A DNA stretch of 20,470 nt from a virus. The position numbers were made by a program, and so were the translations under genes. Location: IMG/VR virus record IMGVR_UViG_3300037963_000711, positions 1 to 20,470 of that record; one strand, 5' to 3'. Shown in pieces: positions 10,874 through 20,053 of the stretch. A model generated the notes under the pieces. That model saw only the letters and a program-made list of their open reading frames with translations. It was not told the DNA's origin and did not search any database. The first letter of the stretch is position 1. Each line of letters starts with the position of its first letter.

Positions 10874-11809
10874 GTGATACAGAGATTACGAGAGTATGCC
10901 ATAATAGGTATAGCTTTAGGTATAGTTACAAGTGTGGCATTTGGTGAGGATTCCAACATAACCAATACCACTACGACTACATCTACTGTAACTTCTAACA
11001 ACACCAATACAAATAATAATAATAATGTAAGTCAAAGCACCAGCACCAATACCAACTGGAATACAAACTCTAATACCAATAACACAACCATAAATTCTAC
11101 TGCAACAAATACCAATACTAATACATCTACTAGCAATGTAACATCAAACATAACTCAAACACAAAATGTTACTAACACAAATACTAGCACTGTAGATTCT
11201 ACTACCAACAATACAAATTTATCTACAAATAATAATACCAACGTAAACACATCTACAAGTTCAAGCACTGTGAATACGCAAAACATTAACACCAATAACA
11301 ACACAAACACTTCACAAAATGTGAATACTAACAATTCTACCAGCACATCATCTGCTACACAGAAAGTTACACAAAGAATTAAGACCGCCCCTCCATCCGC
11401 AGTGAGCCCATCCATCATGTCCTATTCTCAAGACCTCTGCACTACAGGAGCTTCAGGGGCTGTTCAAACACAAATCTTTGGTGTATCAGCAGGTAAGTCT
11501 ATACGAGACGAAAACTGTGAACGTTTAAAAAATTCCAAAGCTCTATATGACATGGGGATGAAGGTAGCGGCTGTAGCCCTACTTTGCCAAGACGAAAAAG
11601 TTTTCAGGGCGATGGAACAAAGCGGCAGTCCTTGTCCGTATAAAGGTAAGATAGGTGCTGAAGCCCAGAAAGCATGGGATGAAAATCCAGAAGACAGACC
11701 TGACTGGCATCTTATAAAAGCAGATATGAAAGGGTATGAATTTAGAGCTTACAAGAAAAAAGACTTTTGTAAGAGATACCCAACACAAAAGATATGCTTA
11801 AAACCCTAA
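10874..11809 (+). CDS. secreted Asn/Thr-rich protein with conserved Cys domain, 311 aa
   Basis: The start is GTG 10874; the ATG at 10872 runs straight into TGA. AGGAG at 10863-10867 is 6 bases upstream. Residues 1-24 form a signal peptide (basic MIQRLREY, hydrophobic AIIGIALGIVTSVAFG, predicted cut after AFG). Residues about 27-162 are almost only Asn, Thr and Ser, with runs such as TNTNTSTSNV. Residues about 165-311 form a separate domain with at least six Cys (SYSQDLCTTGASGAVQTQ, ENCERLK, ALLCQDEK, SGSPCPYKGKIG, DFCKRYPTQKIC), probably disulphide-bonded after export. From memory, this C-terminal domain occurs in other marine phages as an unnamed protein. It is expected in the periplasm or at the surface. 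The coding GC is visibly higher in the C-terminal domain than in the gene before it. Confidence 0.8.
   Translation: MIQRLREYAIIGIALGIVTSVAFGEDSNITNTTTTTSTVTSNNTNTNNNNNVSQSTSTNTNWNTNSNTNNTTINSTATNTNTNTSTSNVTSNITQTQNVTNTNTSTVDSTTNNTNLSTNNNTNVNTSTSSSTVNTQNINTNNNTNTSQNVNTNNSTSTSSATQKVTQRIKTAPPSAVSPSIMSYSQDLCTTGASGAVQTQIFGVSAGKSIRDENCERLKNSKALYDMGMKVAAVALLCQDEKVFRAMEQSGSPCPYKGKIGAEAQKAWDENPEDRPDWHLIKADMKGYEFRAYKKKDFCKRYPTQKICLKP
10945..11360 (+). repeat. Asn/Thr/Ser low-complexity tract
   Basis: About 140 codons of AAT/AAC, ACT/ACA and TCT/AGC in irregular order, giving frequent N-T-N-T alternation but no fixed repeat length. The DNA strand is therefore strongly purine/pyrimidine mixed A/C-rich. 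A single W (about residue 57) breaks the tract. Confidence 0.85.
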
Positions 11810-17955: not shown

Positions 17956-19527
17956 TTAATTTGAAAAAATTTCTTCAGTATCTAACCAGTTGCTTCCAAT
18001 TTTGATTTCAATGCCTACTGGCATATCATACTCTATTCCCCATCTTCTCTTGGCTTGCTGGGGTATGGAAAGCATACACTCTTTGACAACATCAATCACT
18101 TGATCTTGTTCATCAGGATGTACATCCACTACTATACTATCATGTACTGTATTACAAAGTAGGGATTTAAAGTTGTTTTTCTTAAATGCCCTAAAGGTTT
18201 CTACAAGTGCAGACGGAAGTAAATCTGCTGTAGCAAAACCCTGTACAGGATAATTCTTTACACTCGTTCCATGAGTAATTCCTCTGGCTGTTCTTCTTAC
18301 ATAGGGAAATCTGTATTCCCTACCTGACGGAAGAGCCACCACTTTATATTTCAATGCTTGTTTAGCTAAATCCAAATGCCATTCTCCTATCTGAGGATAT
18401 ATCTCTGTAAACTCAGAATAGTATCTATGTATATGCTCAGGTAAACCCATTCCTGTAGCACCATACAAAGGAGCAAAGGTGTGTGCTTTTGCGTTTTGCC
18501 TTTCCTCTTTTGTTATCTCATCTTTTTCTTTACCAGTTATTATTGTAGCTGTCAAGTTGTGAACATCTACCCCACCCTTGACATTTGCGTAAACATGCTT
18601 ATCTTGACTAAGATAACCTGCTACTCTGTATTCTAGTTGAGCATAATCGCCCTCTAGGATATGACCCCCTTCAAATCTAGAAACCACAGCTCTACGAACT
18701 GGAAATGTTTTGCCTCTAGGCATGTTTTGGAAGTTAGGACTCCTAGATGACAGACGACCAGTGCTTGTTACACACTGCATAAACTGAGGATGTATGCGAT
18801 CATTGTAATCTAAATTCTTCTCTATACCTTCTACAAAAGTTTTAAGGTAAGTTTTTATTGCGTTATATCTTAGGTAGCGTTCTATAAAAGTAAATGCTTG
18901 TTCGTTACCTCTTTCCCTATATAGCGATAATGCATCTGCATCTGTTTTAAAACCTTGCGTACTGCAAGACATAATACTTATAGGAGATAATTTAAATCCT
19001 GCTACTTGATTAGTAGGCATATACTTTATACCTACACCTTCACAAGATTTACATATATATCTAGCCTTACCCCATGTGCCATCTTTTCTTTTCTTAGACA
19101 CTCTTCCATAACCGCTACAGACATTACATCTAGTAGCTTCTGTTCTGTACTGTATTATAGTGTTATTAGCTACTGCTCTTTTAAACTGAGCATCTGACAT
19201 AGGAGTTCTACGCTTAGGCTTTCTTGCGTTACCTCTAACCTCATACCCAAGATTAAATGTTTGTGCCCAAGTCTTTTTGTTCTTAACACCTCTACTAAAT
19301 AATAATTTTGATCTATCTTCTGGACTAGCAAGATTAATAGGTGTATCACCCATAACTCTCTTAATCTCTTCGTTAAGATATTTCTCTAGCTCATTAGCTT
19401 CTAAAGTATACTCATGCTTAACTTTGTTTAAGGCTTGGCGATCTATCTTGATACCATCCTTTTCCATCTCTGCTAAGACTCTCGTTACCTCAAAAGACAG
19501 GCACAGTGTAGGCTGCAATTTGCTCAA
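17956..19527 (-). CDS. family A DNA polymerase, polymerase domain with DnaJ-like zinc motif, 523 aa
   Basis: Motifs in order: EMEKDGIKID (20-29), the usual join between exonuclease and polymerase domains; C134, C137, C159, C162 as two CxxCxGxG units (CNVCSGYG and CKSCEGVG), of the type in the DnaJ central domain; TGRLSSRSPNFQNMPRG (256-272); motif A with D294 (EGDYAQLEY); motif B R343, K347, F351, Y355 (RQNAKAHTFAPLYGATG); motif C H462-D463-S464. All catalytic residues are present. F351 corresponds to E. coli Pol I position 762; a Phe there has been linked to virulent phages. The apparent start is TTG 19525-19527, 8 bases after AGAGGG (19536-19541). It overlaps the exonuclease frame by 38 bases and may be expressed by that start or by a +1 shift. 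It extends fork synthesis with the helicase encoded upstream. Confidence 0.93.
   Translation of the reverse strand: MSKLQPTLCLSFEVTRVLAEMEKDGIKIDRQALNKVKHEYTLEANELEKYLNEEIKRVMGDTPINLASPEDRSKLLFSRGVKNKKTWAQTFNLGYEVRGNARKPKRRTPMSDAQFKRAVANNTIIQYRTEATRCNVCSGYGRVSKKRKDGTWGKARYICKSCEGVGIKYMPTNQVAGFKLSPISIMSCSTQGFKTDADALSLYRERGNEQAFTFIERYLRYNAIKTYLKTFVEGIEKNLDYNDRIHPQFMQCVTSTGRLSSRSPNFQNMPRGKTFPVRRAVVSRFEGGHILEGDYAQLEYRVAGYLSQDKHVYANVKGGVDVHNLTATIITGKEKDEITKEERQNAKAHTFAPLYGATGMGLPEHIHRYYSEFTEIYPQIGEWHLDLAKQALKYKVVALPSGREYRFPYVRRTARGITHGTSVKNYPVQGFATADLLPSALVETFRAFKKNNFKSLLCNTVHDSIVVDVHPDEQDQVIDVVKECMLSIPQQAKRRWGIEYDMPVGIEIKIGSNWLDTEEIFSN
19030..19128 (-). other. DnaJ-type zinc motif (two CxxCxGxG) inserted in polymerase
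   Basis: Cys134, 137, 159 and 162 of the polymerase part lie in two CxxCxGxG units 20 residues apart, with many Lys/Arg between and around. DnaJ has four such units for two zinc ions; only two are here, enough for one zinc. It lies between the exonuclease/polymerase join and the TGRLSS motif, that is, in the region of the thumb. Confidence 0.88.
19490..19498 (-). other. candidate +1 recoding site GTC-TTT-TGA at exonuclease/polymerase join
   Basis: The last exonuclease codons are GTC TTT TGA G. A tRNA-Phe on TTT can move one base forward and still read TTT, after which GAG continues the polymerase frame as PVF-EVTRVLAEMEKDG. A slowly read UGA behind a slippery TTT is the same type of site as in bacterial prfB (CTT TGA). 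No Shine-Dalgarno stimulator just before it, unlike prfB. Confidence 0.5.
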
Positions 19528-20053
19528 TGCTTTTACCCTCTTGTTTTGACTGACTTAAAGCTACCTCGTAAGTAGACTGCACATCAGCTATTCCATATTC
19601 TTCTACTATTTCATGTGGTATTATATCAAAACCCATACCATCTTGCAAGTACTTTTCCAATATACCTTTTTTCTTTTTTGTAGGAGTCTGATGTCTACGA
19701 CAACATTCATCAAGACTTAAAGGCACCTTGACTCCTCTTGCCCAGACATAATCAAAAACCATAGTATCATAAACTGCACCACTGTATTTAAAACCAGTAG
19801 CAAACAGCCACTGTAAATCAAACTTAATATTATGACCTAGCAAAACATCTGTTCTATCTAATGCGTCTTGCACTATCTGCATATTGTTTTCTGTAGGCGG
19901 TCTATCTGCATGGTAAAACCATACATACTCAACAGGCTTATCGTCTTCTTTAAATCCTACTGACACTAGCTGATTACCCTCAGCGTAAGGAGAAGGATCA
20001 GAACCTTTGTCTGTTTTTATAAAGGTAGTTTCTACATCTAATGTTAAAATCAT
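19490..20053 (-). CDS. 3'-5' exonuclease domain of family A DNA polymerase, 187 aa
   Basis: DnaQ-like fold with all motifs: D6 and E8 (LDVETT), N75 and D79 (LLGHNIKFDLQWL), Y153...D157 (EYGIADVQS). It removes mismatched 3' ends and is the N-terminal domain of T7-like and Pol I-like enzymes. In a normal polymerase this segment is followed directly by the polymerase domain; here the frame closes with TGA while the polymerase domain continues one base forward. The ATG (20051-20053) overlaps the helicase stop (ATGA) and has GGGAGG 8 bases upstream. If not recoded, it would be a free-standing proofreading subunit, as some phages with split polymerases have. Confidence 0.92.
   Translation of the reverse strand: MILTLDVETTFIKTDKGSDPSPYAEGNQLVSVGFKEDDKPVEYVWFYHADRPPTENNMQIVQDALDRTDVLLGHNIKFDLQWLFATGFKYSGAVYDTMVFDYVWARGVKVPLSLDECCRRHQTPTKKKKGILEKYLQDGMGFDIIPHEIVEEYGIADVQSTYEVALSQSKQEGKSIEQIAAYTVPVF

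Follow-up and report, generated by a model that had tools for sequence, protein, structure and literature searches.

A probable two-gene family A DNA polymerase, divided between its exonuclease and polymerase domains, in an uncultured marine phage of the HMO-2011 type

Described polymerases and the window locus

The closest described relatives are the HMO-2011-type phages (HMO-2011, CRP-1/2/3 and HTVC033P; PMC9038755, PMC6918029), which have the same family A DNA polymerase with a DnaJ CXXCXGXG insert, 39-44% identical to the one presented here. PMC9038755 states that in every reported member a single protein holds exonuclease and polymerase with the DnaJ domain between them, and the cultured members found in this study likewise have exonuclease and polymerase in one ORF, whereas the DNA analysed here (the window, a stretch of 20,470 nucleotides) has them as two genes. 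Phage replicases made as two polypeptides have been described before. PMC2988022 (citing Petrov et al. 2010) describes a split gene 43 in T4-related Aeromonas phages, whose products 43A and 43B co-purify and show polymerase activity, with a homing endonuclease near the split in some phages; this is a family B polymerase, not homologous to the family A polymerase of the window. The OM43 phages MEP401 and MEP402 (PMC10580990) have a marine family A polymerase in two ORFs, 25-31% identical to the HMO-2011-type ones, but their split is inside the polymerase domain, with the exonuclease and the N-terminal part together, a small ORF in between and no DnaJ insert. A search of the literature readable without subscription gave no described exonuclease/polymerase split of family A phage polymerases.

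In the window, both genes are on the minus strand, and the following features were assigned.

19490..20053, minus strand: gene for a 3'-5' (proofreading) exonuclease of 187 aa, from ATG at 20053 to TGA at 19492-19490 (PF01612, E=3e-6)
17956..19527, minus strand: gene for a family A DNA polymerase of 523 aa without exonuclease domain, with a TTG start (PF00476, E=1e-59)
19490..19527, minus strand: overlap of 38 bases, read in two frames as exonuclease tail and polymerase N-terminus (from the sequence)
19489..19495, minus strand: TTT-TGA-G, which holds the exonuclease stop and was proposed as a +1 slip site; judged to be no functional frameshift signal
19525..19527, minus strand: polymerase start codon TTG, present in 54/54 close sequences, at which the selected frame switches
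19536..19541, minus strand: Shine-Dalgarno (SD)-like AGAGGG, ending 8 nt upstream of the TTG (from the sequence)
19027..19143, minus strand: DnaJ-like zinc insert with two CXXCXGXG-type motifs, polymerase residues 129-167, a hallmark of HMO-2011-type polymerases (PF00684, E=0.003, below the gathering score)

The coordinates, the exact 38-base overlap, the TTT-TGA-G site and the spacing of AGAGGG had been given by an earlier reading of the sequence alone, and all were correct on re-reading. The same sequence-only reading held that the catalytic residues are intact and that two whole products without decay are encoded, which is borne out: both ORFs are whole, the catalytic D, E, D, Y, D of the proofreading exonuclease of family A polymerases are present as D6, E8, D79, Y153 and D157 and are invariant in the 33 split exonucleases compared, and alignment with the polymerase domain of Klenow recovers motif A (DYAQLEYR), motif C (VHDS) and the R/K/F/Y of the O-helix. 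The zinc motifs of the insert read CNVCSGYG and CKSCEGVG. Elsewhere in the window (10874-11806, plus strand), an Asn/Thr-rich low-complexity protein matches PHROG 20531, which is of unknown function.

In L040, a close split relative of 48 kb and the contig tested for terminase and capsid, the terminase large subunit (55%) and the coat protein (two segments, 57% and 53%) are HMO-2011-like; an HMO-2011 hypothetical protein of 1128 aa had no match in the window. The window and its split relatives are HMO-2011-type marine phages with a split polymerase. With a probability of about 0.88, this uncultured marine phage of the HMO-2011 type has a genuine DNA polymerase encoded by two genes, in which the fused family A form was split at the exonuclease/polymerase linker and the polymerase is started separately at TTG.

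Polymerase start and selected reading frame

A scan of viral contigs gave about 50 close relatives with 80-100% amino-acid identity. The TTG together with TCTTTTGAGGT was found in 54/54 sequences (the window and 53 junction-spanning contigs, with 19 junction haplotypes), and the frame break lies at the same codon in all of them, which is the conservation that the sequence-only reading had suggested looking for in related phages.

To see which frame is under selection, changes around the junction were assigned to the branches of a tree built from the rest of the polymerase gene. Among the changes in the 60 bases upstream of TTG, 51/60 were silent in the exonuclease and 5/60 in the polymerase, whereas between TTG and the exonuclease stop 8/12 were polymerase-silent and 3/12 exonuclease-silent (Fisher P = 4e-5 for polymerase-silent and 8e-5 for exonuclease-silent changes, upstream versus overlap); the P values are indicative, as changes on the same tree are partly dependent and the overlap comprises 12 inferred changes at 6 sites. 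Exonuclease third positions accounted for 17/21 variable sites upstream of TTG versus 2/6 in the overlap. The break and the start are both conserved, and by these substitutions the selected frame changes at the TTG, in a clear direction. The polymerase-frame silence between TTG and the exonuclease stop indicates that translation in the polymerase frame is already under way before the proposed slip site.

The independent TTG start with an SD-like sequence, already suggested in the sequence-only reading, is supported by the conserved TTG and by this frame-specific selection. The weakest element of the observation is the window's own SD, which is only moderate (pairing energy -6.3 kcal/mol, a level that about 10% of coding 17-mers attain); TTG, too, is a weak start. 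At the same place, some close relatives (L016, L018 and L044 subclades) have AGGAGGG (-10.8 kcal/mol, 0.5% of coding 17-mers), and the start region has less structure than 185/200 shuffles. Strong SDs were also found in other split lineages (AGAGGTGG in L059, -10.3 kcal/mol; L073, -13.8 kcal/mol; L164, -9.3 kcal/mol); most of the other split lineages have ATG at the homologous place, and in L318 the only candidates are TTG or GTG. At the N-terminus of the split polymerases, a short leader precedes PTLxLSxE or a variant (M...PTLxLSxE type). The N-terminal PTLCLSFE of the window polymerase is homologous to these starts and to the linker of the fused relatives, whose proteins have a PTLxLSxE-type motif at the same place (e.g. 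KATLELSNEM).

In the proposed mechanism, which is the ordinary one for overlapping genes, the ribosome would bind GAGGG/AGGAGG and initiate at TTG within the last part of the exonuclease gene, while the exonuclease would terminate at its own TGA and the polymerase would be started separately. Initiation at TTG would give the N-terminal tryptic peptide LQPTLCLSFEVTR.

Split and fused relatives

The wider set consisted of further relatives and the loci of 11 cultured HMO-2011-type phages found by protein search, each locus being classed as fused or split. Clusters at 93% identity (n=80) were counted instead of loci because different scans partly repeat contigs. Forty-three clusters were fused and 37 split; 36 of the latter are split at the exonuclease/polymerase linker and thus, like the window, lack the HMO-2011-type arrangement, in which one protein contains exonuclease, DnaJ insert and polymerase; the 37th (L254) is broken inside the exonuclease and is no linker split. 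The cultured HMO-2011-type phages found were all fused (11/11). The sequence-only reading had counted relatives with an uninterrupted frame and no TTT-TGA as evidence against itself; such relatives exist among the more distant fused phages, but none lies inside the clade. As a separate observation, L254, L045 and L049 are single contigs whose exonuclease or polymerase is broken at other places; they may be decaying copies or products of faulty assembly.

Junction length, with the motif III Asp of the exonuclease and a fixed Gly of the polymerase as anchors, was 129, 123 or 117 nt in fused loci and 127, 137, 142-148, 282-336 or 577-583 nt in split loci. In L052-L058, a PDDEXK_14 nuclease gene (PF24579, E=2e-37; L052 1626-2063) occupies exactly the place between the exonuclease and polymerase genes; scanning for the PDDEXK nuclease detected it in five of the L052-L058 contigs only, and the gene may be a trace of the origin of the split or of its exploitation. 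In L075-L079, differing short ORFs of about 50-70 aa, two of which were run against Pfam and had no match, lie between the two genes, where close relatives have only 10-13 nt. The linker site is a hot spot for small insertions, and with a whole gene between the two parts in L052-L058 and short ORFs in L075-L079, no frameshift can join them there.

In the unrooted polymerase tree, a fused subclade was placed among split lineages, and a single split clade was not rejected by AU tests (p = 0.149 for the polymerase, 0.42 for exonuclease plus polymerase). A single fission, a fission with re-fusion, and several fissions are all compatible with these tests. In most split lineages the polymerase is in +1 relative to the exonuclease, and this common relative frame favours one fission event. 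One small indel in the linker (129 to 127 nt) would break the ancestral fused gene, after which the junction would have diversified; the fused subclade with 117 nt may have arisen by re-fusion.

The survey in PMC9038755 kept matches at >=80% alignment length and polymerases >540 aa for its tree, and from these stated thresholds split polymerases of about 505-523 aa would have been excluded, so a sizeable part of an abundant marine phage group may have been missed by it. In this clade nature has tested whether the covalent link between a replicase and its proofreading domain can be lost, and perhaps regained, and fidelity and assembly can be compared between fused and split relatives. A bolder idea, which we regard as tentative and somewhat doubtful, is that the family A replicase of a large clade of marine phages is a stable two-subunit enzyme. 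Proofreading would be the task of a separate protein, dosed through a translation start of its own, and polymerase could coexist in forms with and without it; the split at one linker would have let other genes insert and perhaps been re-fused in one subclade.

Joint action of the two proteins and other readings

The model of the exonuclease alone had a pLDDT of 91.7, with low confidence at residues 184-187, inside the overlap. The joined chain, read through the break, had a pLDDT of 87 and a pTM of 0.79, and residues 1-697 of its model align with Pol I large fragments and with Pol theta (Z up to 29.7, rmsd 3.5, 527 aligned). According to these predictions both parts fit the usual arrangement of a Pol I large fragment, in a joined model that forces the domains together. 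Each of the 13 long contigs searched (12 split, one fused; up to 55 kb) contained a single polymerase and a single exonuclease. We infer that the two proteins would bind each other and act as one proofreading polymerase, because each is the sole copy in the long contigs searched and both have all catalytic residues. The exonuclease could instead have turned into a nuclease acting on its own and no longer together with the polymerase, as a separate gene with its own short added tail helix in the predicted model and Foldseek matches to free-standing DnaQ-like nucleases (e.g. ExoX, NrnC) might suggest, but it stays adjacent to the polymerase across the split set and the best PDB match of its model is the exonuclease domain of E. 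coli Pol I, which makes its independence unlikely.

In the +1 frameshift of E. coli prfB, a slippery codon is followed by UGA. The window has the same combination at the frame junction, and the sequence-only reading had proposed it as a second expression route beside the TTG start, in which some +1 slippage at TTT-TGA would add a fused proofreading enzyme to the separate polymerase, at a ratio set by UGA decoding. The P-site UUU re-pairs perfectly in +1, TTTTGAG is invariant in the 54 sequences, the slip product would have 42 codons between anchors, near the 43 of most fused relatives, and the joined chain is predicted to fold well; the peptide diagnostic of this product would be SIEQIAAYTVPVFEVTR. 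Of the two routes, the TTG start stands and the slip was not upheld, as the polymerase frame is already under protein-level selection upstream of the site, so that it is not reached only through a slip, and no stimulator was found. Inspection of the sequence revealed no SD directly upstream of TTT-TGA, unlike prfB, and the region downstream folds no better than shuffles (z = -0.05).

The invariance of TTTTGAG is otherwise explained, being expected from two-frame coding and a roughly 10% chance for the GAG GTA after it; conserved Glu codons are invariant in 5/16 cases and conserved Val codons in 7/21 across the clade, making GAG GTA unremarkable. Against the slip there are also the exonuclease tail residues preceding the site, which vary (Y/H, T/I/N/A, V/I), and the other split lineages, whose different junctions or inserted genes make a slip impossible at this site. 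Such dual expression is thus quite improbable; an independent start and a two-gene replicase are favoured over it, and the slip is not needed. Synonymous-site conservation at the slip site was also considered as a signal and rejected, since its 5-codon invariant run is exceeded by two 6-codon runs and the overlap explains it. These 6-codon runs, nucleotide-invariant across the clade despite divergence elsewhere in the gene, are at polymerase codons 401-406 and 422-427 (TTG = codon 0).

That a fused polymerase is decaying into a pseudogene while the phage relies on another enzyme would agree with the frame break in itself, but is very improbable with both ORFs intact and conserved across the clade, mostly silent changes (51/60) in the exonuclease just upstream of the overlap, invariant catalytic residues and a single polymerase per long contig. 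The plain alternative in the sequence-only reading, an ordinary fused gene whose four-T run was misread in sequencing or assembly, is refuted even though homopolymer indels are common and fused relatives exist, because the selection pattern is that of two genes and 53 other contigs from many samples carry the identical junction.
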